Source: Paramacrobiotus metropolitanus
Taxonomy: Eukaryota; Tardigrada; Eutardigrada; Parachela; Macrobiotidae
Assembly: GCF_019649055.1 (NCBI RefSeq)
Contig: NW_026570495.1
Coordinates: forward strand, 1 to 64,000
DNA length: 64,000 nucleotides
Direction of reading: 5' to 3'
The notes beneath the pieces were generated by a model. It was given only the letters and a program-made list of their open reading frames with translations, was not told the origin of the DNA and ran no database searches. Position numbers and translations under genes: made by a program. Each line of letters begins with the position of its first letter. The first letter of the stretch is position 1. Positions 36,071-63,835 of the stretch are shown here, piece by piece.

Positions 36071-37081
36071 ATGCATCGACGTGATTTTCACTGCCATTTC
36101 CAATATCAGTTTGTAAGAAGCGGTACTATTGTCGGTGTGGGAGTTCTCAGCATCGTGGCGGGACTGACCGCAGTGTTCCTGAACGCTTTTGCCCCTGGGA
36201 GTGAGTATTGTTCTCATAGTATTTTGCTGTTCATATCATGTGCACGTTCGGCTTGTGAAATATTGTAAACTTTTTCTTGAACGCAGACTGTTGCATTATA
36301 TCTGTACCTTTAAGCAACAAACAGTCGCATTTGTGTATGCTATAGTAAAGTATTTAATAGTGCATGTACTTAATACGTGTACCGTACTGTGCAATATGTA
36401 TCAGCTTATGCACTGTATAATATATATTATGTACACCAACTATCTTTCTACCGGTATGCAGTCCCGAAGTCACTAATTTCTGTACGTTTGAGTTTTGTGC
36501 TTAGGATTTTGCACTGCATATATTAAAAACCAATTCAGCGCCCTGTATTACTATTGTATTCTTCGCCAACAAACCACTGGGTTCATTACTTCATCGTAGT
36601 GCTGTGGTCCTTGCCACACTCCATTTATTTGCTGCTCCAGTCCACGAACATGATGACCGCATCCGGTATGGTCTGCACCGGCTGCTGTGTGTTATACGGG
36701 CCGTTCAGCCGACGCTCGTATATCGTTACCATTGTAACAGCTGTTATGACCACGAGCTATGGCGCGTTCCTTTTGATGCAATTCACTGCCGGCGGCAACT
36801 GTGCTACTATGATGCTGTTGGTGACACGTTATCAGAACACCCCAAATTGCGATTTCTTCTGCAGTGACGACCTCTCGATCGCCATAAGCAGTGTTTCCGT
36901 GATTGTACAGTACATACAATGGATCCACTTTTTCATGGGGGCCACGTGGGTGATTGCCTGCTGGTCCAGTCTTCCTGATCGGTCTGCTGCGTCATGGCAA
37001 TATTCCCGAATGAAGACGGACGATCAGGAGAACGAGGACGAAATTGCGCTCCTTCAAAATGACGAGCATAACGATCATTAA
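36071..37081 (+). CDS. A1: A-type tetraspan membrane protein
   Basis: Family not recognised. Exon 1 36071-36200 (ATG, MHRRDFHCHFQY; helix 1 LSIVAGLTAVFLNAF) ends phase 1 at GGGA|GTGAGT. Exon 2 36600-37081 follows the TCGTAG acceptor. Helices 2-4: IYLLLQSTNMMTASGMVCTG, YIVTIVTAVMTTSYGAFLLM and VIVQYIQWIHFFMGATWVIA. Conserved with A3: LWSLPHSI, AGGNCA.MM, CxxxCxDDL, GATW, then a cytosolic acidic tail (RMKTDDQENEDEIALLQ). About 203 residues. The loop between helices 3 and 4 has three Cys, probably disulphide-bonded. It heads the tandem array. The upstream block expected of A genes is missing nearby and may be the one at 26 kb. Confidence 0.65.
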
Positions 37082-38930
37082 CAGAGAGCGGTTCGTCAAG
37101 CTCCGATCAGTTTTGAGCGTCAAATGAACTCTGCTTCGTTGTCAATAATTACGCTTGACCTTTCGTTTCGCTTACAAAGTTACGCTATTACTGTTGCTGT
37201 ATTTGTGCGCTAAAACTTCGCCAATTTGCCGGATTTTTAGTATAATTAATTTAAAAATTTCCGCTCAGCTTTGTGAATTATTTTGAAAAACACTTTTTGG
37301 TACCGTCAATCTCGTTAACTAGTTTGGTGAAGCTGCTATTGAAGTTATGCTTTTTTTATTCTGAAATTCACTTTCAGTTTTTGATCACAAGAGTAAACTT
37401 GTTTCTCTCTAAAAGTATTTGCTTATGTCAGCTTCGCTTTATCTTGAGCAGAATATTTTTCGTAACCGCCAAGTTTCTCAACTGGTATGGTAAGTTTAAT
37501 ATCCGCTACATATTCCGCTGTTAAATATCTGTATTCGCCTTTTGCGTACTGTCAGTTTCCGTCAAGTTGGCCGAAAATGCTAAACATTATCGTTTCGTTT
37601 CGGAAATCTTATTATGTAGTTTGCGAACTCTAGATGTTTTTCCGGAGTGTTGATTGCAAGCTGCGCGAGGTTGATGCTAAAAGCGGAGGATGGACAACTT
37701 GGCTCAGCTACCGAAAGGAGGCCTTAATAGAAACAAGGATCTACAGATACCTTAATTAAAAATTGTACTTACTGTTGTTAATCACATATCAAGCGTGGAC
37801 GCACTGTATGTTTACGAACATTCCTTTCTATTCTGTTCTGCCGTATATTATTAATTTATCGTTAAGACATTTGATACATACAGCTGTTTAAACAACAGTA
37901 GTACTCGTACAGCTCTTACGGGTACTTTGCATTCTGTTGGACGAAAAAGCATGTGACTTTAATAATTAATAACGGCATTAAATTTTTATTTGCTGAATGT
38001 TAGGTTTGCGCATCGACTGTTCCGTAAGAACGATAATTCAACGGCAAATTATGGCAACACCATTTCTGCAATGTGAGAGGGTAGCCTGACTAAAATAAAC
38101 TGCAAATATACTGTACATAGATTCGTAGAACACAAAACACTGGTTACTATGTATAAGTACAGGGAACATTTGTTTATTTTTGCCTGGAAAATTATTCGGT
38201 GTATGCGAATGTGCTGTGTGTTGTAATTAACTACATCGACCACTACCGAGCTAAATTATCAATCACTACCGGAAGCAGATCTAAGGCTGTATAGGTGGCA
38301 TATTATCTACGTAACAACAAGGAACTTGTAGCGCACATCTAGCAGCATTCATAATTAAATTTTGTTTTTTTTTCACAGATAGTGAGATCAACATGCTCGG
38401 TGCAGGCCTGATAAATATCATACGAATATGATGTCTAGCACGAATCATACAAATAGGTCTTATAAATTGGAAGTGCGCCATGCTTTGCTTACGTTAAGTC
38501 ATTTCTTTAAACTAAATTCATGAGAGTTTTGCTTCGGACAAATACGTTCATAGTGACTTCATACATTCATATAGTAATCCTTACAGGAGCATTGCATATA
38601 AAACAGGCCTATTTGAAAATTGCACAATTATACTTTTAATGTGCGGAATTTTGAAAATCTGTAGTGGCTGTGTATTTACAGTCCGTACAGAAACATTAGT
38701 AATAATGTCAAAACTATATAAGCATGTCACAAATACACAATTAGTACATGCAAGCAAAACCCATGGTAATGACTGATGATTGCTCGTTGATGTTGTTCTG
38801 ATGATTGACTGATGACTGATGATTGCATAGTTAGTAATACTTAGTTAATGTAATTCTCCAGGCTGGCAGTTATTTGTTAGTTTATTAAAGTATTTCGTAT
38901 AAAGTGACGCTAATGAGTAATGCCGGACGC
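37082..38930. other. A1 to B1 spacer
   Basis: AT-rich, no gene. A short GATTGACTGATGACTGAT-type microsatellite lies at 38768-38826. Confidence 0.35.
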
Positions 38931-38934
38931 AAAC

Positions 38935-39165
38935 AGCGCAGCGCATTTTGAGGCAGCGCCACCTGGTTACTTACGAGTAGAAACCGTTGCAACTTCCGGT
39001 ATGACTTCATCCGGCTGTTTGTGTTGCCGTGCGTCTCTAATCTATCGGTTGCAATGTTCAGTGCATATTCCTAATGATTGCCGATAAACTATGGTATGGT
39101 GGCTAGACCAACCCGGCTATACCACGTAAAGGTAAGAGCTGACGGGAGCCAACCATGAAAAAAGG
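38935..39165 (+). promoter_or_regulatory. B-type upstream block of B1
   Basis: Conserved in all five B genes. Order of motifs: GGCAGCGCCACCTGG, GCAACTTCCGG, ACTATGGTATGGTGGCTAG, then GAGCCAACCATGAAA at a TATA-like position about 370 bases before the ATG. Confidence 0.5.
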
Positions 39166-39520
39166 GAGAAATCAAATATTGGGATTCACCATAATTTACT
39201 TATAGAACGTACGAGTAAACCGGCACACTAAAATTAGTTGTATTACCGCTATTGATTTTCATGAAATGGTGGTTTAAATCACTAGTTAGTAGCTATTCTG
39301 TACTGTACACCGACCAACGCTGTTATTTCCAGGACTGACGGGAATCATTTACTGCATTACAAGCACCGTCTGACTCATAACCGTTAGTCCCATTTTATAT
39401 ATCTGGAGAGCTCTAATCTAGACTCTACCGCCTTCGTTGAACGTTTCAACGTGCGCTGTTCGAGAATTTTGCTGGTTCCTCGTAAAAGATTGACAGTGCA
39501 CTGTACATTATATCCGAAAA

Positions 39521-40951
39521 ATGTGGCTGCGCAAAGTCGGACATCGTCTTGTAAGATCCCAAGCGGTGCTTGTTTTCGCAGTCAGCAACATGTTGGTTTC
39601 CGGAGTGGCCACTGCCCTTGTCGTCCTGGCAGCTGGGCGTGAGTAGTGTCATTCTGATTTAAAAAATTATAAAATTTTGCTCTGTAACTGCTCGGTCAGC
39701 GGCAAAATAGAAGTCACAGCCGTGAAGAAGTTCAGCCGTCTTCGAAATTACGAGCACTAATGTGTATGAAAAGTTTAGATTGGGGCAAAATCAATGCGAG
39801 GGGGAAGTTTACAGTAAATGCATGTAGCAAGCAGCTTCTTTATAAGCATTTTGAATAACTGAATTACTTACTAAAATTTTGCCAAACGTTGTTGGTTGCA
39901 TTGGCATAGGGACTAGAGGCAATTTAATAATAAACATGTATGATCTAAATTATATTATTGTTTAGGCCGCCAGCCAGCATGAACCTTTCTGTTTAAGTCA
40001 AATTTAGCCGCGTAGACCGCAAAGCCCTCACTCAATCTTGAAAAATTCAAAAAATGCTGATTACAATTTACCAGAGGTCAATACAAACTCAGAAAGGTGT
40101 CGGGTTCTTGGATAATACGGCCGCTGCATCTGCAATGCGGGTGTGCCGATATGGCAGCCCGCCTCAGTGGCATCTCTTGATTTGTAAATTGTACGAGTAT
40201 TCAGTTTTTCAGACTTTGCAAAATCCTCCCACTAATTATTAAAACTATGGTTTGTTCTACAGTTTCCACTGGTTGGTGTTGGTCGTACCCGGATCTCACA
40301 AGTCTGCACTTGATGATGCTGGTGCGCTCATTGCTTTACAGCACCATAGGTACGGCAGCTTATTCCGGAGCGTTTTGCAACTACAAATGTGAGAAGCACT
40401 TAACTGCCCAGGATCGCAAGAAGGCCGGCCGGTATTTTGCCTTTGTGATCTTCATCGATGCAGTATTACTCCTCTGCTTCGTGTTTCACCTGTATGACCT
40501 CGTACACTTCCGCCGATGCGTGAGTGCTCGCTCCTGGTTGCCACTTGATTTAGCAGGGGTGTGCTGCGCATCTTCGGAGCCTAATCTTTACCGAGCATAC
40601 GTAAACTTTGGTTGGATGTACTTTCTGATTTACGGCATCTGCTTGGCTAACGCCCTCTTCTCCATTGTTCTGAGCGTGATTATTCGGCATAAGATGGGTA
40701 CAAAGACAAGCACTGTGGTTGGAGCTAAGGATAATGAAAATGGTGGAACAGACATTACAGAGAAAGATATTAGTACTGTAAAGAACCCGGGGATGGATGA
40801 TCTGGTGGATAGCAAAGACCCTCGCGGCCGCTTGTTGTGTACTGAATGTGAAACCGAACGGAAGACCCGGTGCAAGGAGAATCAAAGTCAGAATCTCCCG
40901 GAAGTCAAAGAACTGCTCGCTAGCGAGCAAGCAGCAGCGGCCGAAGCTTAA
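39521..40951 (+). CDS. B1: B-type tetraspan membrane protein with CxxC tail
   Basis: Family not recognised. Exon 1 39521-39638 (118 bp; MWLRKVGHRLVRSQ then helix 1 VFAVSNMLVSGVATALVVL) ends phase 1 at GGGC|GTGAGT. Exon 2 is 40263-40951. Order: GWCWSYPD; helix 2 to AYSGAFC; loop NYKCEKHLTAQDRKKAGRYF; helix 3 VIFIDAVLLLCFVFHLY; loop FRRC...VCC; YVNFGWMYF leading into helix 4 IYGICLANALFSIVLSVII; a charged tail with LLCTECETER and a Glu/Gln/Ala-rich end. About 269 residues. The 624-bp intron has a CTACAG acceptor. Intact. Confidence 0.68.
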
Positions 40952-41637
40952 TGCATTCCCTAACGAGTTCGCGGACGAGATTCTGGACTGACGCAATAAA
41001 TGAAGGCTTGCTGAGGTTTTGTTGAAGTTCATTGAAAGGTTAATCCTGGCTTAGATTGCACGGTTTGTATGGATTTCATACTTCCGGGCGAAATTAATTC
41101 ATTAATATTAGAATTCATCAACATCATTTAGGCACTTTGCAGTCAAACAATTTAATTATCAAAGACATTGCTGCTGATCGATCACCAGAAAAATGTATAA
41201 GTCCTTCCGTGTTACTGTATTTCGCTGCACAGTATGTACGAGTGTGTTCTGTTTATTTAATCGTAAGAAATAATAAACCACCCGAAACGATTCGCGACAA
41301 CATCGTCTAACCAGTAATCATGAGACCGAGCGTGGAATAACACAGTAGCATATAAATTTGTATTCAGAAAATACTAAGACAAGTTAGACAACTAAAACAT
41401 ACTGCAGAACAAAGAACATTTGGTTTTATATTTACAAATATATTATATTCGTACAAATATATAGAAAGATTATTGAGTGCAAATTTTTTTCACAATTATT
41501 ATGTAAATGCACGAGTTTTGCTCACTGAGAAACACTCAAATGAAGAAAATATCCCAGTTACCCCGGGGTAAGATTAATTAAATGATTAACTGCAACGGCA
41601 CAGTGTCTATGTTGACACTTCTGACAGAGATAAACAA
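40952..41637. other. B1 to B2 spacer
   Basis: 3' flank of B1, AT-rich, no gene seen. Confidence 0.35.
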
Positions 41638-41860
41638 CGTAGCGCATATCCGGCATTTGGCTACGGAGTAGTGGGAACCGCTGCAACTTCCGGCATTACT
41701 CTAGCCGGCCGTTCAGGTTGTTGTCCCTCTCTAACCTAACGGTGTGCAGTACTGCTCATTTCTTATGATTTCCGGTAAACTATGGTATGGCGGCCAGACC
41801 AACCGTGGCTGTAGGACGTAAGGGTTAGATTTAACGAGAGCCAACTATAAAACAGGGCAG
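41638..41860 (+). promoter_or_regulatory. B-type upstream block of B2, with TATA box
   Basis: Same block as upstream of B1: GCAACTTCCGG, GTAAACTATGGTATGGCGG, GAGAGCCAACTATAAAACAG. Here the TATA-like site is a full TATAAAA (41846-41852). The other copies carry degenerate versions, so this copy best shows the presumed core promoter. It lies about 450 bases before the ATG, implying a long leader or a leader intron. Confidence 0.5.
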
Positions 41861-42064
41861 CAATTAATATCGGAATGTACCATAAACCGAGTGGGTCTGG
41901 TCGAACTCACAGGTGCCATTCCCGAAATGTAAAGCAGGAGGTACGAGTATACCCGCTAACCCGCGCACCAAAATCTGATGCATGTATACCTATTCTATTG
42001 ATTTCATTAGATGATGATTTAAATCTCTGGTTGCAAGCCATGTATTCCTACCGTCACTACTGTT

Positions 42065-42114
42065 GTTTCCACGATCGTGGAAACGATCGTTCCTGACAGT
42101 CGGACTGTCAGGAA
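42065..42114. repeat. two adjacent perfect palindromes in the B2 leader
   Basis: GTTTCCACGATCGTGGAAAC (42065-42084) is a 20-bp palindrome. TTCCTGACAGTC, one base, then its complement (42090-42114) forms a second. Other B copies have only one simple form of this sequence. Confidence 0.7.
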
Positions 42115-42297
42115 TCGGTTAATACATTGTAAGCATGACGTCTGACTCATAACCGTCTTACTCAAAATCCCATCTCCTGTATCTTGGAAGGCTGTCTAAT
42201 CTGGATTCCACTACTTTCCTGTCAACGTGCACTATTCGAGAACTTTAGTGGTTCCTCGTGACAATTAATACAATAATCTCTACATTTAGTCCTCACA

Positions 42298-44054
42298 ATG
42301 TGGCTGCAAACAGAAGGACATCGCCTTGTAAGATCTCACGATGTACTTTTCTTGGCAGTCAGTAACCTGGTGGTCTCGGGAGTGACCGTTGTCCTAATCT
42401 TCCTGACAGCCGGGCGTGAGTATTGCCATTCCGATTTTAAAAAGTAGCTCTGTAGCCCGGAACGGGTGACTAGAAATCAAGTGTAATCGATAGAGTTTCT
42501 GTCTGTAAAAGTTTACCATCATTAGAATTACTACTGTTACTATTTCGGTAATTCCTGTAAAACAGTTTAGATTAGAGCAAAATGAATGTTACGTGGGGAA
42601 GTAATAATTTCAAATACTCGTAAATCTATGTACAGAGCACGCAGGTGTCTCGTACATCGTTATAATTATGTATTTCCACAGGAGGATAGAGATTTACTTC
42701 CACAGGAGGATAGAGGTTTTGGTTGTTTTTTATGTTTATTTTGACTGCAAAGTAGAGTATCCGCGCTTGCACTTTATTTTACCAGTGAATTACCGTATCA
42801 ACAGCTGAAATCCTGCGAAATTTTGTTAATGCAAATAGAGGCGGTTTAATAATAATGAACAGTATATTAATGTTGTTTAAGCGGCTAGCCTAAATCGTCT
42901 TATTGAGATCAATCCTAGCCGTGCAGGCGATTACACAGTCCTTACGCGACCTAGATAAATTAAAAAAAGGCAGATAAATTACAATTTACATACATATTAT
43001 TAATATTCAAAGATTCACAAACGGCGCGCTAAGACTGGTGTCGGGTCCTCACTCTCAGCTAATGCGGCCGTTACAGTTGCAGTGCGATCCCACCTCAAGT
43101 GTACAGTCATGTTCTCGCCCAGAATAATACCTTTTTTAATAAATTTGTACGGATATCGACTATGCTGTTGCAGATAGATCTTCTGTTACATTTACCGGTA
43201 CGTCATACATGTACAAAACCCTAAAGCCGTTCTCACACTTTGCGAAAAGTAGCCGCTAATCGGTTTGCTCTGCAGTTTTCGCTGACTGGTCCTGGTCCGG
43301 CTGGTCGAATTCGGCGTCCCGGGATTTCTTCCGCCTGCATATCTTCGTGCTAATGTACCCGCTGAATTACGGCAGCTTGGGCGTCAAAGCTTATTCCGGA
43401 AAGTTCTGCAACTACAAATGCGAGAAGCACTTAACAGCCGGGGATCGCGGGAACGCCCGGCAGTATTTTGACCGGGTGTTCAACATCAATGCATTGGCGC
43501 TCGTCACCTTAGTGCCTGAACTGTACCACTTCGTATCCTTCCGCCTGTGCATGAGTACCCACACGGGGCTTAACTCAACACAGGAGTGCTGGTTCGGCGC
43601 CGGTGCTAATGGTACTGGTGCTGATGCTGGTGGGTCATCGGCTTCGAAGCCTCACCGAGCATTCGTGGACTTTGGCTACATGTACATTCTGATAGACGGC
43701 ATCCACATGGCGAATGCTCTCTTCTCCATGGCTATGAGCACAATGATTATGCGTAAGATGGACACAAAGAAAACCACCGTGGATGGGAACGGAGATCATG
43801 AAAATGTTGGCAGTTCGGAGGCCGGCACTGGAAGAAACCAAGGGATGGATAGGAAAGACACCGATGGCCCTCTGCTGTGTATCGTGTGTGAAAGTGAAAG
43901 GATGACCCGGCAAAAGGAGAAGCAAAGACAGAAGAATCTCCAAGAAATCAACGAAGAGATCGTTAGATTGCAAGCCCTACTGGTATCAGCTGAAGCCCTG
44001 AAACGCAGGTATGCTCTCTTACCTATAGCGGACGGGAATCCCGGGTTGAATTGA
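42298..44054 (+). CDS. B2: B-type tetraspan membrane protein with CxxC tail
   Basis: Exon 1 42298-42415 (MWLQTEGHRLVRSHD; helix 1 LAVSNLVVSGVTVVLIFLTA), donor GTGAGT in phase 1. Exon 2 43276-44054 after a TCTGCAG acceptor. Features: DWSWSGW, AYSGKFCNYKCEKHLTAGD, helix 3 NINALALVTLVPELYHFV, FRLCMSTHT, a loop enlarged by a Gly/Ala-rich insert (GAGANGTGADAGG), RAFVDFGYMYILI, helix 4 MANALFSMAMSTMIM, tail LLCIVCESERMTRQKEKQRQ followed by a coiled-coil-like Leu/Glu segment. About 298 residues. Intact; closest to B3. Function unknown. Confidence 0.68.
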
Positions 44055-46027
44055 ATACGCTGAACTGGCTGAAGTGCTGTTTCCGTTGAAGTGCTGTTGT
44101 AGTTCTAATTACCTGGGCTTACACTGCGTGTTTTGCCCAGATCGCTTAAATTCGTGCGGAATAATGCAGTTAACATATTATGATGCGTGGTCGAAGTTAG
44201 CAAACTTATTTACAATGACAATATCTTGGTACACGAAAAGTACAAAATATTGGTTTTGTTTCGCTATACAATATGTATATGGTCTGTTAATCTGTATATG
44301 GTCTGGTTTAAGGGATTACAGTTATCTGCAATATTATGATCTATGATGGTTATGAATACCTGTAATATTATCGATGTACGAGTATTTGTGAATTGTACTT
44401 ACGGTTACTATGAGTGGACGCGCAAAATATATAGCCGTAAATCCGGCATCTTGGTTTCCCAAATAAATAATTCAGTGCCATTACTGAACTAAAGACTAAT
44501 AATACAAAGTAGATATCCGAGTAACTGATAATAAATAACCTGTATTATTTTCGCAACCAGTGCCGCTACGAAAACTCTGCAGATCAATCCCGCCCGATAG
44601 TTTCACCTCGAACACTTCGAAATATTTCGTGGACAACACCGTCTAATTCGAGCATAGTCTAAAAGATCAGCAGAAAAATTAATATTCAAAAATACCACGT
44701 TATACTCGTATCACTCTACGATACACCTGACTTGTGTCGATATTTCGTTGTTAGAATAACGCATGTGATTTGGTAACTATGTAATTAATGGCGACATAAA
44801 ATTCAGATATATATAACAATCCCACAGGCATGCATAGCGATTTTCTTGGCAGTCGTTCCAATAATTTACACTATAAAAAATGCTACACACAAAGCAATAA
44901 GTGCGCAAAACGAAAAGGTTACAGCGGAATACATACTATAGACGCATCAGCAGACGTTGCATGTCAGCTGTTCCGGACGAATCCCCTCATCAATGGACGA
45001 ATACCGAATTTATGAAAACATTCCAAAATTATAAAAGTACTAGCAGGAAACCGATTTGTTGATTGATGGACAATTCTCCATTTGACTGTTATTGGTGAGC
45101 GAAGCTCGCTTTGTGCCTACTAATTTACCTATCTCAGTCACTGATAATTATTACTAATAATAGTATTGTGGTCGACTGGTAGTGGTCGACTCCCGCAATT
45201 TTTATCGTACTGTTTAAGAATTTTGCAAGCTCACTGCTCTATAATAGCCGGTGAGGCACAGTGCATGTGCGCATGGGCCGGGCATGGCGAAATTAATGAA
45301 CCAATAATTTGACAACTGCGCAGAATTTAAACAACAACGTAAAATTTGCAACCAACAAATAATAAACAACGTAAACACAGGAATAAGGAAAACAATTATT
45401 TTCATGTGGTATGGTCAATGGGCGTGGTGAAAACAAAACTTAAAAGTAACTTCTACACTGTGCTGTAACCAATGGGCAATGCACCGCATGATTCGCATCA
45501 TTACGGTTTAGCGATACTGAACAGTGAACAACCTGTACGAGGCCAGTTTAACTTCAATAATAAATCAAATAACTTCGATAATTTTACTTTGATAATGTCT
45601 TCTGCAACGGGGATCGGACGAGCCCCCTTACGCATACGACAAGATGACACAAGAACAATACTCGTATATTAAACCGACTAAAATAATTATGTTGGTACTA
45701 AGGTTCACAAGAACGCTTCACATACCGGAAGCCTATATGAAAACTGCTAAATTTTAACTTTTTATTTACTGAAATTAGAAAATCTGTATTGGTTGTGAAT
45801 TACAGTTTGCACAGGAACATAATTTATAAACACATTGATAATGCAGAAGTACACCCTTGTGATGGCTGTCGGCTGACGATTGGTCATAAGCGCAGTATGT
45901 AATACTTAATATAATGATATACGCTTGCAATTATGAATCAGTTGGCTAAAGTACGAGTATTTTGTCTGTTGGTGCATGTATTTTGTTGTTAAATTTTCTC
46001 TGGTATGTCAATGTCTGTATTGACTTT
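44055..46027. other. B2 3' flank, duplicated downstream of B3
   Basis: 44.08-44.75 kb matches 49.33-49.98 kb, and 44.75-45.35 kb matches about 52.09-52.75 kb, so the whole B2 unit including spacer was duplicated to give B3. No gene. Confidence 0.5.
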
Positions 46028-46278
46028 AGTGACGTAGCGCATAATTCCTACGCAGCGCCAACTGGCTACGTAGTAGTTGGAAACTTGGAACCACTGGAAC
46101 TTCCGGACTTACTTTAGCCGGCCGATCGTGTTGCCGTCCCTCTCTCATCTGTCGATTGCAGTTTTGTATACTTCTATTTTTGTAATTACCGGTAAAACTA
46201 TGGTATGGTGGCTAGGCCAACCATGGATATGCCACGTGAAGTTTAGATTTGACGAGAGCCAACCATGAAACAGGGCGG
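46028..46278 (+). promoter_or_regulatory. B-type upstream block of B3
   Basis: CAGCGCCAACTGGCTACGTA, GGAACTTCCGG, AAACTATGGTATGGTGGCTA, GAGAGCCAACCATGAAACAG. It is immediately followed by the hAT insertion. Confidence 0.5.
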
Positions 46279-46286
46279 CTATTAAG

Positions 46287-47687: not shown

Positions 47688-49357
47688 ATGTGGGTGCGAA
47701 AACTAGGAGACCGTCTTGTAAGATCGCACGATGTGCTTTTCTTAGCAGTTAGCAACGTGGTGGCCGCCGGAGTAACCCTTGTCTTCGACATCCTTGCAGC
47801 CGGTCGTGAGTACTGCCATTCTGATTTTTTTTTAAATTAACCACTTGGTCAAAGGGCGACTAGAAATCGGCATTATTCAATGTAGTACTACTAATAATCG
47901 AAAAGTTAAGCGTTACTGAAGTTACTATGATGTACGAGTATCACAGTTTTGGTGGTTGCTGCAAAGCGGTTTAGATTAGAGCAAAACGAATGGGCTTTTG
48001 GGGGGCGGAAACTTTCAGATAAATCTATATACTGTGAATTACGACAGCTAAAATTATGCAAAACTTTGTTAATTGCATTGGTATAGACGGTTTAACAATA
48101 TGTAAGCAGTATATCGTTAAATGTTGATTAAGCCGTCGGCATAAACCTTCTTGGTAAAATTAATCCTAACCGTGTAGACGATCGCCAAGTCCCTACTCGG
48201 CTTTGGGAAATGGAAAAAATGCAGATTACAGTTTACATATCGAATTATTATTAGCAGAAGAGTCGCAAACCGCGCGCTAAGACAGACCGGGTTCTTGACA
48301 AATACGGCCGTTGCAGGAGCAAAAGCGAGTGTGCCAATGTGACAGCCGACCTCCGGTGTGGTCAAGTTCTTGTCCATTAAAAACTTATTTTTGTTTGTAA
48401 ATTGTACGACTAAGCAGTTATAGATATAGATCTCTTTTGTAATTACATGAACAGTACCCTAAAGCCGTTCTTTGGTGAAAACCAGCCGATCGATTGATCT
48501 TTTGGTCTGCAGTTTTAACTGGCTGGTCATGGTCGTATCGGGATAACCAGGATTTCATCCGTATGCATATATTTCTGCTAGCCTACCCATTCCATTACGG
48601 CGGCATGGGCGCCCAGGCATATTCCGGAAAGTTTTGCAACTGCAAATGTGAGAAGCACTTAACGGCCCAGGATCGCCAGGACGCCGGGAACTATTTTAGC
48701 CATGTTCGCAACATCCATGCACTGGCGCTCATCACCTTATTGCCTGACATGTACCACCTCGTAACCTTCCGCCAGTGCATTAGCACCCAGATTGTGTCTA
48801 ATTCAACCGAGAAGTGCTGGTCATCGCTTTCGGATCTGGTTGTTCGCCGAGCATTCGTGGACTTTGGTGGCTTGTACATTCTGATGAGCTGCATCCACTT
48901 GGCCAACGCCCTCTTCTCCATTGTTATTTGTGAGGCTGTCTTGCATACGATAAATACGGAAAAACTTGGACAGGAAGATAATGGCATTACGAAGGAAGAG
49001 ACCGCTCAGACCAGTACTGGAAAAAATCAGGGGATCGATGACCCCGTGGATGGGAAAGACACTGGTGGCCCCCTGCTGTGTGTTGTGTGTGAAAATGAAA
49101 GGATGACCCGTCAAAAGGAGAAGCAAAGGCAGACGAATCTCCAGGAAATCAACGACGCTCGACGCAGGTATGCCGAAGGACAACGCAGGTATGCCGAAGC
49201 TCAACGCAGGTATGCCGAAGGTCAACGCAGGCATGCCGAAGCTCAACGCAGGTATGCCGAAGCTCAACGCAGGTATGCCGAAGCTCAACGCAAGTATGCT
49301 ATCTTAGCAGACCGGAATCCCGAGTCGAATGGAATACTCGCTGAAGTGCTGTTGTAG
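47688..49357 (+). CDS. B3: B-type tetraspan protein with heptad-repeat C terminus
   Basis: Exon 1 47688-47805 (MWVRKLGDRLVRSHD; helix 1 LAVSNVVAAGVTLVFDILAA), phase 1. Exon 2 48513-49357 after a TCTGCAG acceptor: GWSWSYRD, AYSGKFCNCKCEKHLTAQD, helix 3 IHALALITLLPDMYHLV, FRQCISTQI, RAFVDFGGLYILM, helix 4 LANALFSIVICEAVL, LLCVVCENERMTRQKEKQRQ. The tail then has seven tandem 7-residue units of the type RRYAEAQ (49.16-49.29 kb), encoded by a 21-bp minisatellite and probably helical. About 320 residues, the longest copy. Frame intact. Confidence 0.68.
49155..49295 (+). repeat. in-frame 21-bp coding minisatellite
   Basis: Seven units of CGCAGGTATGCCGAAGCTCAA-like sequence, small substitutions between units, all in frame in B3. 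Confidence 0.85.
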
Positions 49358-50061
49358 TTCTAACCCGGGCTCACACTGCGTGTTTTTTTTGCCTAGATCT
49401 CTTGATTTCGTGCGGAATAATGCAATTAACATTATAATGCATGGGCGACCGTAGTTAGTAAATTTATTTACAATGACACGAAAAGTACAAAATATTTGTG
49501 TTGTTTCGCATACAATATGTATATGATCTGTTTGTTTAACGGATAACAGTTATCTCCAATATTGTAATCTATGATGGTTATGAATACCTGTAATATTATC
49601 GATGTATTTGTGAATTATGCTTACAACTGCACCAGAAGTATCGTGGGGACGAGCAAAATAGCCATAAATCCGGCATCTTGGTTTCACAAATAAATAGTTA
49701 AGTGCCATTAGTGAACTAATCGTAAAGACTTAGTCCAGAGTACATATCAGAGTACCTGATAGTAAATAACCTGTATTATTTTCGCTACCAGTGCCAATAC
49801 GAAAAACCTATAGATAAAAGCCCGGCCGATAATTTCACCTCGAACCACTCGAAATTTTTCGCGAACAACACCGTCTAACCACCAAATCGAGCATAGTCTA
49901 AAGCATTAACACAAAAATTAATATTCAAAAATACCACGTAATACCACTCTCTAATGTACCAGATTTCTGTCGACATGATACAATATACTGCCCTTTCCTG
50001 TTTCCTGAATGACCTTGAAAACTAAGTTAATATACGTCAACTCGAAAACCAGAAGGGATTA
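49358..50061. other. B3 3' flank
   Basis: Homologous to the B2 3' flank until about 49.98 kb, where the match stops and foreign sequence begins. No gene. Confidence 0.45.
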
Positions 50062-52895: not shown

Positions 52896-52919
52896 CATAT
52901 GCATTGTTCGGTTGTGCTT

Positions 52920-53130: not shown

Positions 53131-53337
53131 AACGGGCACGGATATTGAATAACACCATAGACAAAGAGCGCGTTCTTATGGGGCATACAGGTACCTAGCT
53201 CAAGTAGATTAATGGGCACGCTATTGAGTACATTAATGGGCACGTTCACCGGCACGCTATTGATCTCCATGAGACGGTGATTAAGAGCCGCAGACATTTG
53301 GGAAGGCAGCGTACATGTAGTTTTCCCAGGATTGCTA

Positions 53338-54331
53338 CCCGTACGGTCGTTCGGTTGGCCACCTATGGTAAGTGAATGGGCGATGGTCGTTCAAAGTGGC
53401 CACCTTGAATTACAATTCCCACAAACCGTTTTTCTTCCGGTTTTTTTCTTTTCTCAGTTAAGGATAACGCACCCTTTACAGAGTACTTGAAATTTTTAAA
53501 ATATCTTGAACCGTTTTCTTGCAATTGCGTCGTTAAAAAACCAGTGACGAAACACTTAAGCCACGCCACGTGAGCCACTGTACTACGCCATGAAAATTGA
53601 AGTCACTACCACAGGCACACATGTGCGGCTGCTTTGTCCCTGTGTAGGCGATACATATGCTCAATGAATGTAGTGAAACCGTGCAAATAGAATAAATGTA
53701 GCTGAGATATTAAATAATATAGAATATATAGAATAAATAGAATATAGAATAAATACGAGATATATAGAATAAATACGCTGAAATATAGAATAAATACGCC
53801 GCTGAGGGATCGGGTTCTTCAGTCGTCGTCGTAAGGTACTCCGTGAGACAGCGTGGAAATTAGCTGCTTCTTTCACTGAAAGCCCGTTAACTTTGACGTC
53901 CGTGCAAGCCGAGATGAGACGCTTTTCCATCTTAATGGTTTTTTTTTTAACAAACCAACCTTTTGACTACACTTAAACATCAATAAATCAAGAAATAACA
54001 AAATCAATCAAATTAAATATAAACGGATCTGCAATATTATGCGCAGCCGCACATGTGTGGTAGTGACTTCAATTTTCATGGCGTAGTACAGTGGCTCACG
54101 TGGCGTGGCTTAAGTGTTTCGTCACTGGTTTTTTAACGACGCAATTGCAAGAAAACGGTTCAAGATATTTTAAAAATTTCAAGTACTCTGTAAAGGGTGC
54201 GTTATCCTTAACTGAGAAAACAAATAAACCGGAAGAAAAACGGTTTGTGGGAATTGTAATTCAAGGTGGCCACTTTGAACGACCATCGCCCATTCACTTA
54301 CCATAGGTGGCCAACCGAACGACCGTACGGG
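53338..54331. mobile_element. pogo-type foldback transposon with HTH remnant in the B4 leader
   Basis: 994 bp flanked by TA (53336-53337 and 54332-54333). Ends are CCCGTACGGTCG and its complement; arms of about 295 bp are nearly identical inverted copies, so the same 71-codon frame appears at 53578-53363 (minus) and 54091-54306 (plus). Between the arms, on the minus strand (53927 to about 53790), a frame encodes LSVKEAANFHAVSRSTLRRR, a psq-type helix-turn-helix like the DNA-binding N terminus of pogo/Tigger transposases. A microsatellite of AGAATAAATA units lies at about 53700-53790. No DDE domain. Confidence 0.75.
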
Positions 54332-54490
54332 TAGGAGTCATTTATTACAATGCACACAAGCGCCTGAGTCATAGCTGTTTTAACCGTATGGAAAGCTCTA
54401 ATCTGGTTTCGACTGCTATCTATTGCACTATTCGAAAACCTGATTGGGTTCTTCTCGAAGTATTAACACGCTCTATATCTCCTCTATAAA

Positions 54491-55669
54491 ATGGGGCCAC
54501 GAGAAGGACAGCACGCACAGTCTTGTTAAATCCCGAGATGTGTCATTCCTGGCCGTCAGCAATCAGGTATCCGCTGGAGTGGCCTTTGTCCTTACCATCC
54601 TGGGAGCTGGGTGTGAGTACTTCAACCCGGTTTTAAAAAGCAATTAATTTTATAATCGCTCGATCAGTGTGCTGTTTCAAATTAAGCTATCGCTAGACTC
54701 AGAAAATAAGCAAGAGAATTACAAAATCAGCCGACAAAAAGTTTTTATTACATTTATTTTAGCATATGTCTTTATTGGGTAAATGAACACCAGGTCCTAT
54801 CTTCCAGAATTTTATGAGCTGCACTTGTAGAAAGTGAGTTTTATTTTAGGGTAATAACTGTTTATGCGTATACATATACAGTCTGTTCCCTTGTGCATGC
54901 AAAATGCGATTAATCCCTTCCCTAACCTTTTCCGTTATTTTAAAAAACCGGCTGGTAATTTACATAATGTTTTTTACTTGCAGCCTCCATTAACTGGTCT
55001 TGGTCGTACCGGGAGATCCGGATTCCCATCAGTCTGCATTTGTTCCTGTCAGGCTACGCATGCTTTCACATGGCAATAGGCAAATATTATGGCATTCTGG
55101 CCAACAGCGCAAAGCTTTGCCAAAAGCATGCGGAAAAGTTAACAGCACGGGACTTGAAAGAAGCCAAGAGGGATCTTTCCATTTGGCTCTGCGGCAGTGC
55201 ACTACTCCTCGTCGTCGTAATGCTCGAGATGCATGACCTCGTATCCTTCCGCCAGTGTATGAGTATCCAGACGGTACTTGATTCAGCCGGAGACCGATGC
55301 TGTTCGGAGCCTCATTGTAACCTTCAACCAGCATTCGTGGACTATGGCTACATTTACTATCTGATTTACGGCATCTACATGGTCAATGATATTTTCTCCG
55401 TTGTTATGGGCATGATTGTTCTAATTAAGATGTCTGCGAAAAAAGTAGCCCTGGTTGCACATAAAGGTGTTGATATCCGCGAGGAAGAGAAAGGCATGGA
55501 GAGAGATCCGCAAATGGATGCTCTGGACATTGGCAAAACCGTTGGTGGTCTGCAGTGTAGTGAGTTTCCAAAGGAAACTGTGATCAAACAGGACGAAATT
55601 CAAGGGACGATGCAGCAGCAAATCAAAGATCTGCTTGTGAGCGAGCAAACCAAAACGGCCGAAAGCTAA
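54491..55669 (+). pseudogene. B4: B-type tetraspan gene with start codon out of frame
   Basis: Exon 1 ends at 54612 (GGGT|GTGAGT, phase 1) and encodes SLVKSRDVSFLAVSNQVSAG and helix 1. The only ATG at the conserved place (54491) is in another frame because bases are missing after it, and no upstream in-frame ATG precedes the first stop. Exon 2 (54984-55669) is fully open: NWSWSYRE, CQKHAEKLTARD, helix 3 SALLLVVVMLEMHDLV, FRQCMSIQTVLDSAGDRCC, AFVDYGYIYYLIYGIYM, a tail where the CxxC motif has become LQCSEF. It may be a recent pseudogene, use a non-ATG start, or gain a start from a leader exon. Confidence 0.55.
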
Positions 55670-56770: not shown

Positions 56771-56884
56771 AAACACGCCATATTTATCCCCGAACTTTTC
56801 TCTACTTTACCCGACGGTGTTTGTTAGCGGAAACACATTCACAAGGTGCTGTACACGACTGTACTTGCTGACGTCACTCAGCTG

Positions 56885-57260
56885 CAGCCGGAGGTTGTAG
56901 CTGAGCATAGTGCTTACATGCCGCGCCAAATTTAAGAGAAAGGGCCCGGTACATGGCACCAAATACGTATACATTCACGGGAATTTTTCCTGTCGCGCAC
57001 TTCAGATTGCTTTTACATTGTTTTAGAACATTGTGTAGTTAATTGATTTGTATACATTGCATGAAAACCGTTTGTGCACGCACCATCCGGTTGGAGAATT
57101 ATGGCTATAAAAAAATTCCAAAAGTTTCAATGTATTCAGGTGTACCAAAAGTCTCATTATGGACCACTCCTCTCGAATTTGGCAAACAACAACACATGGC
57201 AGCGAAGATTTTTCTTACACCACACCACGCCTCTAACATTCTTTGCAAATTTTAAACTGG
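56885..57260. repeat. MITE fragments replacing A2 exon 1
   Basis: 56885-56935 resembles the middle of the 190-bp foldback MITE (GCTGAGCATAGTGCTTACATG, then CCGCGCCAAATTTAA). From 56935 a reverse-oriented TTAA-type MITE copy starts GGGCCCGGTACATGGCACCA and continues to about 57260 with CAGGTGTACCAAAAGTCTCA. They occupy the place where exon 1 of A2 would be expected from A3. Confidence 0.5.
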
Positions 57261-57520
57261 ATTTCAAATATTTTAATCTATTTTTGATTGTGAAAAAAAA
57301 AATCAACTTTGATTCAGTTTAATAAGGATCTTCATTCATGCTTCTGGGCGTAAAAATGTGTATATGATATTAGCCATTAATTTGCTATTGGTCAAGTAAA
57401 GTACCGTACACTCGTACAGTACAAAATATTTTTAAAATTAAAAATCAATTCAGTGCAATAACTGTATTAGTGAATGAACTTCTGCAGTCTCCGTGAATGA
57501 TTCACTGGTTATTTTTTCAG

Positions 57521-58159
57521 TGTTGTGGTCTTTACCACATTCCATTAAGGCACTGCTCCAGTTCTCGAATATTGTGGGCGCGTCAACTTTAATCATAACC
57601 GGTAGTAGTATATTGTCACCCGGGGAATGTCGCCGGCCTATGTATTCCTATACAATTCCAATTGCTATTCTAACCATGGGCGGTAACATCCATCAACTGT
57701 TCCACTACGCTGTCGGCGGAAACTGTGCTGCTCTGGAGATTTTGGTGGCATGTAAGCAGGGCAGCCAAGACCATGACGTTTCTTGTGGTGATGATCTCAC
57801 GTCCACCATATATAAGCGATGTTTTCGTGTGCTTCCGGTGGATCCAAGTGGTCATCGGCGCTGCGTGGTTGATCGCCTGCTTTGAAAATTTCCTGGTGAG
57901 TAGTTGCCGAAAAAATTAAGTACTGACATTCCATAGCCAAAATACATTTCTGGTAAAAACTCCTGTAAATCCTGTAATGTAAAGCCATGTCATTTAACAG
58001 GATGTGAAGAAACATGACGGATCCGCAAACGGAAATGGGTGTGTCCTTCAGGAGACGGATGACGGGATCGATTGCGAACATAAGGCTTCGAAAGACCTTG
58101 CGAAGCCGCAGAATTTGGGATGCAATTATGCCAGACATGGATACATTACCATTAGTTAA
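57521..58159 (+). pseudogene. A2: A-type tetraspan gene, broken
   Basis: Exon 2 (57521-57895) follows a TTTTTTCAG acceptor and keeps LWSLPHSIKALLQFSNIV, helix 3 and VGGNCAALEIL, CGDDL. After about 57805 the A-type sequence continues in a different frame (VFVCFRWIQVVIGAAWLIAC), a single-base shift. A GTGAGT donor (57896) and a TTTAACAG acceptor define a third exon 58001-58159 (DVKKHDGSANGNGCVLQE), absent from A1 and A3, whose stop lies in the target site of the solo LTR. No exon 1 is found. Three independent defects suggest a pseudogene. Confidence 0.6.
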
Positions 58160-58622
58160 TGTTACCGCTTCCGGACTCCACTGGGGCACTGGAGCCCCGG
58201 CTGCTGGGAGGCTGGTGCTCTCTGTGATCGGCTGTGTGCGGTGACCGTGGGTCAGCGAGAAGCCGGCCGACCGGGGGTCGGCGGAAGAGAGCGACCAGTG
58301 CCCTGCGCAACCGAAGGCCCCTTTATTGAGCAAGTGCGAAATAACAGCAGAAGAAAACAGCAGGGTGTGGCGGGTGGTAAAAGAACAGAGATCACTCGCG
58401 CTCACACGATATCGAAGGAGCAAAGATAGACAGCAATGAGAGCTGCAGAACCATGCAGTGCGAGAACACGAACAGTACCAAGTGCAAACAGCATGCCCGT
58501 GCATGACGGCGGCCGCTTTGATCTAAGCGCCACGGCGACGCGCAGCGCCACCAACAACCTCACGTAACTCGCCACGCACGGCGAAAGGAGAGAGAGCGGG
58601 AGCGCATGCCCTCCAGCGAACA
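58160..58622. mobile_element. solo LTR
   Basis: 463 bp, GC-rich unlike its surroundings, beginning TGTTACCGCTTCCGG and ending CTCCAGCGAACA (TG...CA), flanked by a 4-bp duplication TTAA (58156-58159, 58623-58626). No internal retroelement genes, so it is presumably left after recombination between two LTRs. TGTTAC/AACA ends fit gypsy-type LTRs, but no coding part confirms it. Confidence 0.7.
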
Positions 58623-58815
58623 TTAATAACAATTAACTCGTTAATTGTCATATAGTTTCAAGTGTACTTGTATATGTACTGTTATTTCTACCTTCATCAA
58701 GCGAGACACACAGCATGTTTATAAAATTTTCATGTTCCGCCATCATTAATTTTAATGAATAGAAGAAGCAGTAGTCCTGTAGCTTTTATTGTCATATTAT
58801 GCAGTTCTGCGTAAA

Positions 58816-58868
58816 TACGTAAGAAGATATAGCGCTAGTTTAGCGTCAGCGCTATATCTTCTTACGTA
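58816..58868. repeat. perfect hairpin, 21-bp arms
   Basis: TACGTAAGAAGATATAGCGCT, 11 bases, then its exact complement. It could be a small foldback element or an RNA hairpin. Confidence 0.75.
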
Positions 58869-58869
58869 C

Positions 58870-59454
58870 CCCAATTTGGGCTGAATTAATGAAAATATTT
58901 CACTATCGTTGCATGGTAAAGCATGTGATTTCAGCAATTAATGGCTACATCAAATTTTAAGCCAGATTAGTATATCAGTCGATGGTACCGATTCTCACTG
59001 CAACAGTTACAATACGGCAATAATTATTTACAATCAAGAACTGCTACATACAAATTACATATACGACTAGAACGATAAGTGCACCAAATGTAGACGTTTC
59101 GGAGGTACTTATATATATGACAGGAAACGTATACAATGGCATATCAGCCTGTCCCGGTCATTAATAATAGTACTTCTACCGGTAGTGTTTGTGTTCTTGT
59201 AAAACAAACAGAAAATAGGTTATGCATCTGCACTGGCTAGGTGTCTTTAAATTGTTTTCATGAGTGCAATCACTTATCACTCTGAGATAACGTTAACTGA
59301 CTATAGTGGCTTTTGCTTGTAGAGTAATGCCATTTAAATAATAAAGCTAGGTTTATAGAATTTTACGTCATGATCAGTGCCATCAAAGGGCGCTAAAAAT
59401 TTTCTTTTCTAACGAAAATTATTATGCCATGAGAATATGCGTTGTTCGGTTCTA
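58870..59454. other. spacer with B-type 3' flank homology
   Basis: 58.88-59.0 kb (GCATGTGATTTCAGCAATTAATGGC) matches the B2 3' flank at 44.76 kb, so it represents the downstream part of a duplicated B unit. No gene. Confidence 0.4.
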
Positions 59455-59690
59455 ATATTGCAACTTAGGGCATATCTGGGACAGCACCACCTGGCAACGT
59501 ATTCGGCAGGACAGCTGTTCACTTCCGGCATTACTCCTACCGGTCGTTGGTGTTATTGTACCTCTATAATCCATAGGTTGCATATTGTGTTACAATAACC
59601 GATAGCCCGTGGTACGATAGGATGGGTTAACTAACCCTGAATAAACTTCGAAAAGTCTGGAAGTGGCGAGAACCAAACATTAAAAATAGG
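59455..59690 (+). promoter_or_regulatory. B-type upstream block of B5
   Basis: GACAGCACCACCTGGCAACG, CACTTCCGGCATTACTCCTA, then GGCGAGAACCAAACATTAAA at the TATA-like position. Confidence 0.45.
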
Positions 59691-60116
59691 CATCGCTGAA
59701 ATATTGAGCCTACCCATAAATAGGGTTCAGAGGGCCAGGTACGTACGTAACGAGACGTGCAGGTGTCAGTGTAAAAACACAGTATTAAGTGCACCCGCAC
59801 ACTAGAATTTATCATGGAAACCCTATTGATTTCCATGAGCCGATGTGTTTAAATCATCATTCACCAGCTACCTGGGCCGACGCTGTTATTTCCCAAGAAT
59901 GTCAGGATCAGTTCTTTACTACACACACTACTGCCACGGTAAGCCAACCGTCAAACTCCTAAGAAGGTACAAGTTCCATCACAAGCGTATCTGTATGGTA
60001 GCTTACCAGGTTCTAATCTAGACACGACTGGTTTTCATTCGATGTACACTATTTGAAAAATTTTGCTAGATTCCTCTTGAAAATTGTCGCAGCAAGCTCG
60101 ACATCCTATCCCAGAA

Positions 60117-61463
60117 ATGTGGCTGGTTGAGGCACGACAGAGCCTTGTTAAAACCCGGGATGTGTTCATCTTGGCCCAAAGCCACTGGCTGGCCGGTACA
60201 GTGGCCCTTGCCCTTACCTTCCTCGGATTTGGCCGTGAGTACTGGCAATTTTTATTTTGAAAAAATTACTTTTAATCGATTACTCGCTCGGTCAGCGAGC
60301 AACTGGATCAAATAAAGTACTTATGTGTTAGCACAAGAACCATGCAAGAGACGCCGAAAAACTAACCGCCGTACTTATCACTATGGGTACTGGCTACCTA
60401 TTTCCTTGAGTTTTGCGTTTGTATTTTACATATGCAGGAGAATTAAAATGCGTATTCATAGACAAATTCTTAGATAAACTACGAGTACTGAAGTATACTT
60501 AACAGCAGCCAAGGTGGGCTGCCATATCGACGAGACGGCCGCACAAACCACCGCTGTCAGTTTGTTAGCGCCCCGTTTAGCAGTGTTTTATTAATGCTAA
60601 TTGTACTAACTAATAAACTTTTACTAACTAAGAAACAGTCTTTAAGTTATTTATCGGTAATAAGAAACTAATGGAACCTTTATACATGCGTATCTTCTCA
60701 AACCATAATAATTTCGCTTTAGTTTAATAAATCTGCCCTAACCCCTCCTCAAACATCACGAGTGACGCGTTGGTAAATTTTTGCAAAAAAAACCGGCCGC
60801 TTATTTATTATTTTTTCCTGCAGTTTCCGTTGACTGGTCATGGTCGTACCTGGAGGCCCGGGCTATAGTTCATCTGCATTCGTTCCTATTAGTCTACGCA
60901 GTCCTTCACCTTGGTATGCTCGTGGCTATCCAAGTTGACTGCGGAATGCATTGCATCTGGAAATGTAAGAAGCATTTAACTGCTCGGAATATGAAGGACG
61001 CGGAACATCTTTTTTCCTTGTGCTCTGTGTCAGTGCACTATTTCTCATCATCGCAATGCTGATCATGTACCGCGTCGTGTCCTTTCGCCAGTGCATGAGT
61101 CTTCAGACGGTACTTGATTCAGCCGGAGAACGTTGCTGTGCACAGCCTCATTGTAACCTTCAGCGACCATTCGTGGACTATGGTTACATTTACTTTTTGA
61201 TTTACGGCTTCTGCATGGCCAATGCCATCTTCTCCATTGTAATGACTACGATTATTCTGATTAAGATGCCTGCAACGGAAATTGCCGTTGTGGGACATAA
61301 AGGGGATGGCATTAAAAAGTTGGAGTGCGACCTGGAAAAAGACCCGGGAATGGATGGTCTGGTGGAAGGCAAAGACATCGGCGGTCTACAATGTATTGAA
61401 TGTGTTAAGGAATTCTTGGCCCGGCAACGGCAAAAATCGAAGCCCTATGTAACAGGACATTAA
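60117..61463 (+). pseudogene. B5: B-type tetraspan gene with frameshift in helix 3
   Basis: Exon 1 60117-60234 (MWLVEARQSLVKTRD; helix 1) with a phase 1 GTGAGT donor. Exon 2 starts 60824 (VDWSWSYLEA, CIWKCKKHLTARN). At a run of six T (about 61010-61015) the frame breaks. The rest (LIIAMLIMYRVVSFRQC, AGERCCAQPHC, PFVDYGYIYFLIYGFCM, LQCIECVKEF) continues one frame over to a stop at 61463. A further change near 61440 replaces the C terminus seen in B4. One missing T would explain the first break, so assembly error must be excluded before calling it dead. Confidence 0.6.
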
Positions 61464-62234
61464 GGGACTGCTTGTTGACGAACAAGGGAAGCCACTACAT
61501 CTGCACGTGTTTGCTTTCAGCTCGCGGATGAATCTTAAGTTGAAGAGCTAATCAACTTACGTTTCAAAGACTCAATCACTGTTTGCAAAAATACGTGTAA
61601 ACCGGTTGTGTTGTTTAAACATATTTACGCTCTGTTTGCTTGAGTAATAATAATTATTAATATTGATTATTGACCCATTTATTGTACTCGTTAGACTGTT
61701 GCATAAAACCCTGCACTAGATTACTTATTAGATATCATAAGCAAAGTGTACGAGTATACAAATTTTCATATGAAGCATAGTTAGTAAACATATTCATTTT
61801 GCGAAGTATGTAATAATTATTCTTAAGATTTCCCACACGAAATGTACTAAGCATGCATTATAATCCAGAGGATCGATTAACCATGGCCAGTACATGTATT
61901 AGGCAGTATTAGGCAGTATTAAGTACAACACACAATATTCCAATTTTCGATTTGCAATTGCTCACCTTACACCATTCGTTAAATGCTACGGTATTTTGAC
62001 GTAGTGACGGGTTCACATCATGTCTGTTTGACGAAGTGGGCGATCGACGAATTTTCGTCGACGAAATGGCGGGTCACCGTTTGTTTGATAGACGTTCGAA
62101 ATGTTGCAGTAAATATTTGGAATTACACTGTTGCAATAACTGCCTGCATTAATGCATTCTTGAGAAATTAATCTACAGCACAACATGTTGTCCGGTTTTT
62201 GTGTACAGGAAGACTCCGAGAGCGAGCATTCAAA
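61464..62234. other. B5 to A3 spacer
   Basis: AT-rich, no recognised gene. TTAGGCAGTA is tandemly repeated near 61.9 kb. Confidence 0.35.
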
Positions 62235-62400
62235 AAAGTGATTACGAAGAAACACGACGTGGTGCCAGGGTTCTTATGGTATACAAACTCGTAATTGCCT
62301 CAAGATAATACACCTCATGATGAGGTGCGCTGTGTAATTGGACACATGAATAACGTTAATAATTATCTCAGAAAGGCGGCCGCGGTATAATTACGGTCCC
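62235..62400 (+). promoter_or_regulatory. A-type upstream block of A3
   Basis: GAGGTGCGCTGTGTAATTGG, TGAATAACGTTAATAATTA, GAAAGGCGGCCGCGGTATAA. It ends about 250 bases before the ATG. Confidence 0.5.
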
Positions 62401-62651
62401 CCAAGTCCACCCAGAGTAAGTCCTGCAGCCTTTTTTTCTGCGCCTGCACGACATTGCTTGTGAGCAGAACGGATATTATTGCCGTCGCACTCCCATATCT
62501 GTAAATTTCATAACTGATTCCGTATAACTGACACTAACTTCAGCCTGACACAATCTACTCTACTCGGCATTACAAAAATGTAATTCTTGCAGTATTGCGA
62601 AGAAAAATAATTATTCGTTACTCGGCTTGAGTTTTTCGGTTGTCTTGGAAA

Positions 62652-63835
62652 ATGCGTCGTGCCACATGTCCTTATCACCATGTCCAAAGCGATCCGCGGT
62701 CAACGTGGGAGGTGTCAGCAATCAGCATCGTGGCAGGACTGGTCGCTGCTTTCCTGAATGCGTTTGCGCTTGGAAGTTAGTAATCTTAGTACTGCTTTTT
62801 GAATCCATGGTATTTACGTGCACTTTTGAACTGAGAAACCCTGATTTGTCTATTATAATGTATGAGTAGCAGATGCAGGCACTATGCAGCACAAGATATA
62901 ATTACCAGTATTTACCACGTAGAACTTAAAAAATGCAAACAAGCAGTGTTCTGTTCAAACACAGTGTTGACATCCATACGCCTTTAATATTTATATGTCC
63001 TTGTTGTACCTTCTTTTTAATTTTATTATTAAATCTTGCCGACTGGTCGAATATTTTGGGCCGACCGACTTTTTTTAATCATGCAATGCAGAACTGGTTT
63101 TTTACTGTGTAGTCCTAGAGTAGAGTAGATTGTATTGGGCGTTAATTTCCTATTGTTAATCAGTCAAACAAGCCATAAGTACAAAACACAAAAACCCACT
63201 TATGGTTAGATAAAGCTACGGTAATTTCTGCATCTTTTAAATTTTGTGTTGACAGATCTCATACACTTGATCTCATACACTTGATTGTTATCGTTAGTAA
63301 ATCAAATTATTGTTGTAAATTTGTGAACGAACTATTGAAATCGCATCTAACGAACTTCTGGGTTTTTTCAGTGTTGTGGTCCTTACCGCATCCCATTCGT
63401 ATACCTCTCCAGCTCGCAAATTTTATGACCGCATTGGGTATGGTCGGCACCGGCTGCGCTATGTTATACGGGACGTTTGGGCGGCATTTGTATAACGTTA
63501 AAATTGCAACGGCTACTACGACCATGGTCTACGGCATCTACCTTCTGGCGCAATATAATGCCGGTGGCAACTGTGCGGTCATGATGATTTTGCTGTTACG
63601 TTACCAGTGTAGCCAAGATTGCGGTGTTTCCTGCGATGGAGATCTCACAATTTTCATAACTCAGGTTTTCGTGATCGTTCAATCTATTCATATCGCCATC
63701 GGCGCCACGTGGTTTATCGTTTGCTATTCGAATTATCCTGGCCGGTCTGATGCGTCGGGGCAATGTACTCGAAAGAAGACGGACAATCGGGAGAACGATG
63801 ATGAAACTGCGGTTAGTACAGTAGATGCTAAATAA
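62652..63835 (+). CDS. A3: A-type tetraspan membrane protein
   Basis: Exon 1 62652-62775 (ATG, MRRATCPYHHVQSDPRST; helix 1 ISIVAGLVAAFLNAFAL), phase 1 at GGAA|GTTAGT. Exon 2 63372-63835 after a TTTTTTCAG acceptor: LWSLPHPI, helix 2 to LYGTF, helix 3 ATATTTMVYGIYLLAQ, AGGNCAVMMILLLRYQ, CGVSCDGDL, helix 4 VIVQSIHIAIGATWFIV, tail RKKTDNRENDDETA. About 195 residues and colinear with A1. Frame intact, with the A-type upstream block in place, so this is the reference copy of the subfamily. Function unknown. Confidence 0.66.

Follow-up and report, generated by a model that had tools for sequence, protein, structure and literature searches.

A tandem family of predicted four-pass membrane proteins, unnamed in the libraries searched, in the genome of the tardigrade Paramacrobiotus metropolitanus

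The first 64,000 bases (the window) of the 74,652-base contig NW_026570495.1 (hereafter C275) of the tardigrade Paramacrobiotus metropolitanus contain a head-to-tail array of genes that an earlier note, made from the sequence by itself, described as an unrecognised four-helix protein family in two subfamilies, A and B. We found that the family has no name in the libraries that were searched, that it has more members than first described, some of them damaged, and that the array is an ordinary tandem expansion. On balance, we favor the reading that this is a fast-evolving tandem family, present in the genome searched (169.8 Mb, 533 contigs) just here and on one other contig (C231), whose small proteins most likely make four passes through the membrane and keep both ends in the cytosol. 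This adds to the tardigrade genome a multigene family of membrane proteins that has no name as yet, together with exact gene models and subfamily definitions.

Eight related copies lie between positions 36071 and 63835, all on the plus strand and in the order A1, B1, B2, B3, B4, A2, B5, and A3, exactly as the earlier note had it; both the E-values and the gene models bear this out. Exon 2 of A1, used as a query, recovered A3 (E 1.2e-45) and A2 (E 4.2e-14), and exon 2 of B2 recovered B3 (E 6.4e-69), B1 (E 6.3e-45), B4 (E 3.4e-17), and B5 (E 8.2e-15); the similarity from copy to copy is well beyond chance. Both exons are present in seven of the eight copies, each of which has a phase-1 intron after helix 1, such that exon 1 encodes a short N-terminus plus helix 1 and exon 2 encodes the remainder of the protein. 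In these seven copies, the final base of exon 1 is A, C, or T, followed by the donor GTGAGT (GTTAGT in A3), and an AG directly precedes exon 2. The two-exon structure with conserved splice sites, previously claimed for every copy, therefore holds for seven; no exon 1 was found for A2 by tblastn at E ≤ 5 with exon 1 of A1 as the query. The reading frame is open throughout in five copies (A1, A3, B1, B2, and B3). The gene models are as follows:

36071–37081, plus strand: A1, exon 1 at 36071–36200 and exon 2 at 36600–37081; 203 amino acids; intact.
39521–40951, plus strand: B1, exon 1 at 39521–39638 and exon 2 at 40263–40951; 268 amino acids; intact.
42298–44054, plus strand: B2, exon 1 at 42298–42415 and exon 2 at 43276–44054; 298 amino acids; intact.
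47688–49357, plus strand: B3, exon 1 at 47688–47805 and exon 2 at 48513–49357; 320 amino acids; intact, with a QRRYAEA-type repeat in the tail.
54444–55669, plus strand: B4, exon-1 reading frame at 54444–54612 without an in-frame Met and exon 2 at 54984–55669; start uncertain.
57521–57919, plus strand: A2, exon 2 only, with a frame change near 57810; pseudogene-like.
60117–61463, plus strand: B5, exon 1 at 60117–60234 and exon 2 at 60824–61463, with a frame change near 61000; pseudogene-like.
62652–63835, plus strand: A3, exon 1 at 62652–62775 and exon 2 at 63372–63835; 195 amino acids; intact.

In B4, an ATG stands at the usual position but out of frame, and the exon-1 frame lacks a Met all the way up to the preceding stop. 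Three of the eight copies (A2, B4, and B5) thus look damaged. This apparent damage may be assembly error, because the published Paramacrobiotus sp. TYO assembly was built from nanopore reads and later polished (PMC8277472). Just before B4 lies an inverted repeat (53335–53632 and 54334–54043) whose arms are 97% identical and about 400 bases apart, possibly the ends of a mobile element.

The spacers between the copies record repeated duplication units, as a common noncoding head lies upstream of each of B1, B2, and B3, and the 3′ flanks of B2 and B3 resemble one another:

38953–39194, plus strand: noncoding head of duplication unit 1; segments within it match 41670–41885 and 46052–46270.
41658–41885, plus strand: noncoding head of duplication unit 2, preceding B2.
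46052–46285, plus strand: noncoding head of duplication unit 3, preceding B3.
44084–44743, plus strand: 3′ flank of B2, 77% identical to 49339–49976 (after B3).

The B2 and B3 flanks are less diverged than the exons of these two genes, with one 150-column stretch just 7% different, and the B1 3′ flank gave no useful alignment with either (Jukes–Cantor distance, JC, 0.81–0.83). A mobile element was considered as the source of the B2/B3 flank and rejected: the part searched (44200–44743) matched no place in the genome beyond these two flanks. In a protein tree, for which A2 and B5 were entered as single open pieces and B6 (a copy on C231, described below) was cut at its frame break, B4 paired with B5 (99/97), B2 with B3 (91/92), and A1 and A3 grouped against A2 and A4, the latter from C231 (97/95); B1 and B6 received no resolved position. 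Provided that the A tree, with its four rows, is correct, the split within A would be older than the separation of the C275 and C231 loci.

Four further members of the family were found on the minus strand of C231:

C231, exon 1 at 90924–90795 and exon 2 from 90350, minus strand: A4.
C231, exon 1 at 87372–87255 and exon 2 from 86853, minus strand: B6, with a frameshifted tail.
C231, start at 83587, minus strand: C1, with the donor at phase 1 of the exon-1 frame and the acceptor chosen by analogy with A.
C231, minus strand: C2, a broken copy of C type.

With the C-type copies, the subfamilies appear to number at least three (A, B, and C) and not two, as the earlier note had proposed. When the whole genome was searched with five protein queries, the best-scored candidates included no other credible copy; a weak match on another contig, C45 (E 0.43), was read and rejected, as none of the family's motifs was seen in it. 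The last 289 bases of C275 (74364–74652) match one other place, C231:84396–84676, about 800 bases before C1, and no open frame is kept in both. Because the contig end matches just this spacer, the C275 array may continue past the contig end toward C-type genes. Beside the C231 cluster, at 75383–78866 on the plus strand (L019 5383–6453 and 7781–8866), are two open reading frames (ORFs) of 357 and 362 amino acids, each with six hydrophobic segments and with no Pfam family over cut-off.

Given the register of helix 1, the shared phase of the intron, the Trp that comes shortly after the exon junction, and the neighboring positions of the genes, one origin for A, B, and C is likely, though not proven. 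When exon 1 was aligned without gaps and anchored at the intron, the true register came first among the 11 shifts for each of the three pairs. Among 3000 permutations over 21 columns, 41 were as good for A–B, none for B–C, and 36 for A–C; over 24 columns the counts were 64, 0, and 28, respectively (this helix-1 test took in exon 1 of the broken genes B5 and C2). A separate A–B comparison of 29 columns gave a p value of 0.0006, or 0.006 with the helix permuted alone.

By hydropathy analysis, A1 and B1 each have four hydrophobic segments, the last of which is called off-center in A1, toward the loop, and C1 has five. Read by eye, positive residues lie at the N-terminus and in the turn between helices 2 and 3, which suggests that both protein ends are in the cytosol. 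By the same reading, the first outer loop has about 10–25 residues in A and B, and the second about 25–50. Cysteines in the second outer loop are kept within each subfamily: A1, A3, and A4 have Cys 111, 127, and 131 in common, and five of the B copies share Cys 125. The alignments, again read by eye, have a CC pair in this loop in B1, B4, B5, and B6, extended to CCG in B6 alone, and N-glycosylation motifs occur in the same loop of B2 and B3. The B tail carries a CxxC motif in B1, B2, B3, and B5; the motif lies in another frame in B6 and is lost in B4. Structure predictions covered exon 2 only and thus lacked helix 1; the model for B2, which is of low confidence, contains helices for passes 2–4 plus a long helix in the tail.

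Several results weigh against the favored reading. Helix 2 of the B proteins is weakly hydrophobic (1.16 in B1) and was not called in B2, so the four helices described earlier for every copy were recovered in A1 and B1, and not in the calls for B2 or, with its fifth segment, C1. The two exon-2 models, one of A and one of B, are poor (predicted local distance difference test, pLDDT, 45.5 and 56.5), and a Foldseek search with the B model gave a best E of 1.0, with no match below E 0.001. When the A and B profiles were compared, the similarity was weak (hhalign probability 4.6%, P 0.0089, 35 columns), although the sole local match does cover the residues at the exon junction; A–B homology is thus supported chiefly by exon 1 and by the phase and position of the intron. 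Lastly, divergence in exon 2 is close to that in the intron (JC 0.37–0.48 versus 0.37–0.51, alignable columns), and for this reason some copies scored as intact may lack function.

The last point leads to a reading in which the array is decaying and most of its copies, perhaps all, are non-functional. We consider this improbable. The three damaged-looking copies in the window and the broken B6 and C2 on C231 would fit it, as would the equal divergence of exon 2 and intron, but five copies remain open, and neutral change does not readily leave such frames: in simulations of B2 at a divergence (K) of 0.37, about seven stops arose and the frame stayed open in none of 2000 runs, and at K 0.19 it stayed open in 1% of runs. 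Exon 1 is less diverged (JC 0.27–0.32) than the intron, with the noncoding head at 0.30–0.33 and the B2–B3 3′ flank the least diverged part, at 0.19. Gap lengths are multiples of three in 19 of 27 cases in exon 2, against 21 of 66 in the introns. Coding constraint is therefore real.

Ratios of nonsynonymous to synonymous divergence (dN/dS) were counted within the set of A1, A3, A4, and B1–B4 (that is, without A2, B5, B6, and the C copies), and the bootstrap and domain counts were also without A4 and B4. By the NG86 method, dN/dS was 0.47–0.81 in all nine pairs (among A1, A3, and A4, and among B1–B4). By YN00, eight of the same pairs gave 0.49–0.87, and B3–B4 gave 1.15 (0.70/0.60), a ratio to be read in light of the many changes in this pair and of possible damage to B4. 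The four bootstrapped ratios (B1–B2 0.62, B1–B3 0.69, B2–B3 0.54, and A1–A3 0.49) have intervals below 1, with upper limits of at most 0.91, which argues further against general decay. The intact copies tested are under purifying but weak selection.

The earlier note had taken the high divergence between copies as a sign of diversification under selection, and positive selection of the kind seen in reproductive or immune surface proteins would indeed account for high amino-acid divergence. In B2–B3, dN (0.31–0.33) also exceeds the JC of 0.19 of their 3′ flank, which could mean either that the proteins change faster or that the flank has undergone gene conversion; the B3–B4 ratio from YN00 is above 1; and, by domain, with B1–B3 pooled, the proportion of nonsynonymous differences (pN) exceeds that of synonymous ones (pS) solely in helix 3 (0.31 versus 0.17, 20 codons, no significance test). 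Nevertheless, helix 3 would be an odd target, and the flank and B4 carry the caveats already given. With NG86 below 1 throughout, the four bootstrapped intervals below 1, similar divergence in exon 2 and the intron, and apparent damage in three of the eight copies, we give little credence to positive selection, and the earlier interpretation is not supported, although these signals in B2–B3 and B3–B4 point the other way. Tandem copies can thus differ strongly from one another without being under positive selection. The data fit birth-and-death duplication under weak purifying selection, in which the copies would have arisen by unequal crossing-over and would persist by birth and death.

The description of the family as unrecognised stands. 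No Pfam family reached its curated cut-off in ten stretches of the window (nine of them array exons), two stretches of C231, or six spliced proteins, and no NCBIfam family did so in seven stretches. The lowest E-values seen, 0.001 (B1) and 0.0012 (B4) in Pfam and 0.0016 (the repeat tail of B3) and 0.0036 (A1) in NCBIfam, were below the curated bit cut-offs and were taken as chance. PDB sequences had no match at E ≤ 10 for A1 or B1, viral contigs searched with the A and B alignments had none, and an Rfam scan of the window gave nothing useful for the array. No published description of the family was recognisable in the literature as judged from titles and the openings of abstracts.

A strong match to a named tetraspan family was looked for, and none was found. 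It seems unlikely to us that the copies are highly diverged members of such a family (tetraspanin, claudin/PMP22, clarin, insect DUF4728, MARVEL, or MS4A type) with an eroded signature, although size, topology, and a Cys-bearing outer loop are alike. For the six spliced proteins, no tetraspan family appeared in the Pfam results at E ≤ 10, although the HMMER filters discard the majority of matches weaker than about 0.1. Among the nearest known families are the tetraspanins (PF00335), which share four passes, both ends inside (as suggested here for the array), and a Cys-bearing second outer loop; the CC pair in B1, B4, B5, and B6 also recalls them. The second outer loop of tetraspanins is large, longer than that of the array proteins, and is marked by a CCG motif and additional Cys. 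In contrast, CCG is present here in B6 alone, the loop has only some 25–50 residues, and the 51 genome matches of the PF00335 profile, some over cut-off, which served as a control, include none on C275 or C231. The claudin/PMP22/clarin group (PF00822, PF13903, and PF25807) likewise has four passes, and a tentative clarin-like four-helix gene lies 13 kb from the array on the opposite strand (21557–23178, minus strand). Claudin/PMP22 proteins have a long first outer loop with a W-GLW-C-C signature, whereas the first loop of A and B is short, the motif was not seen in it by eye, and Pfam did not list the group for the six spliced proteins; the single genome match of the clarin profile PF25807, under cut-off, is the neighboring gene itself, and the array is unmatched. 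Insect DUF4728 four-pass proteins (PF15860) have a similar layout with a positively charged turn linking helices 2 and 3, but the five genome matches of this profile, one over cut-off, miss both C275 and C231. MS4A/CD20-like four-pass proteins have a short first loop and a longer second loop; neither they nor MARVEL proteins were matched in the Pfam scan of the six spliced proteins, and no genome search was made with these two profiles.

If the array encodes a distinct four-pass family, as we favor, its proteins would most likely act as tetraspan-type membrane organisers, judging from their layout. Partners at the cell surface or at a junction would be recruited by the short Trp-bearing first loop, by the Cys-bearing second outer loop, and, in the B proteins, by the long cytosolic tail with its CxxC motif and predicted long helix. 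A more tentative and fuller account is possible, in which the family arose, or diverged beyond recognition, within tardigrades, the three subfamilies came about through duplication of an A–B–C block, the proteins have a tardigrade-specific role at the surface or at junctions, and the C275 array extends beyond the end of the contig with genes of C type. Chemosensory genes typically form tandem arrays that evolve by birth and death, and this pattern, together with the two six-segment ORFs near the C231 cluster, would suit membrane channel subunits or chemosensory receptors of an unrecognised four-helix type; we find this very doubtful, as no channel or receptor family scored over cut-off.

Other features of the window lie outside the array. 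A possible rhodopsin-type receptor gene is present at 12918–13785 on the minus strand, for which the Pfam 7tm_1 family scored just E 0.08. Retroelement-like ORFs, which we take to be of reverse transcriptase and tyrosine-recombinase type, occupy 15272–20060 between repeats that are 100% identical (15272–15518 to 19562–19808, and 19376–19565 to 19871–20060), suggesting a recent DIRS-like insertion. At 29672–31211, a tandem array of units of about 90 bases would encode a repeated peptide in open frames of both strands.

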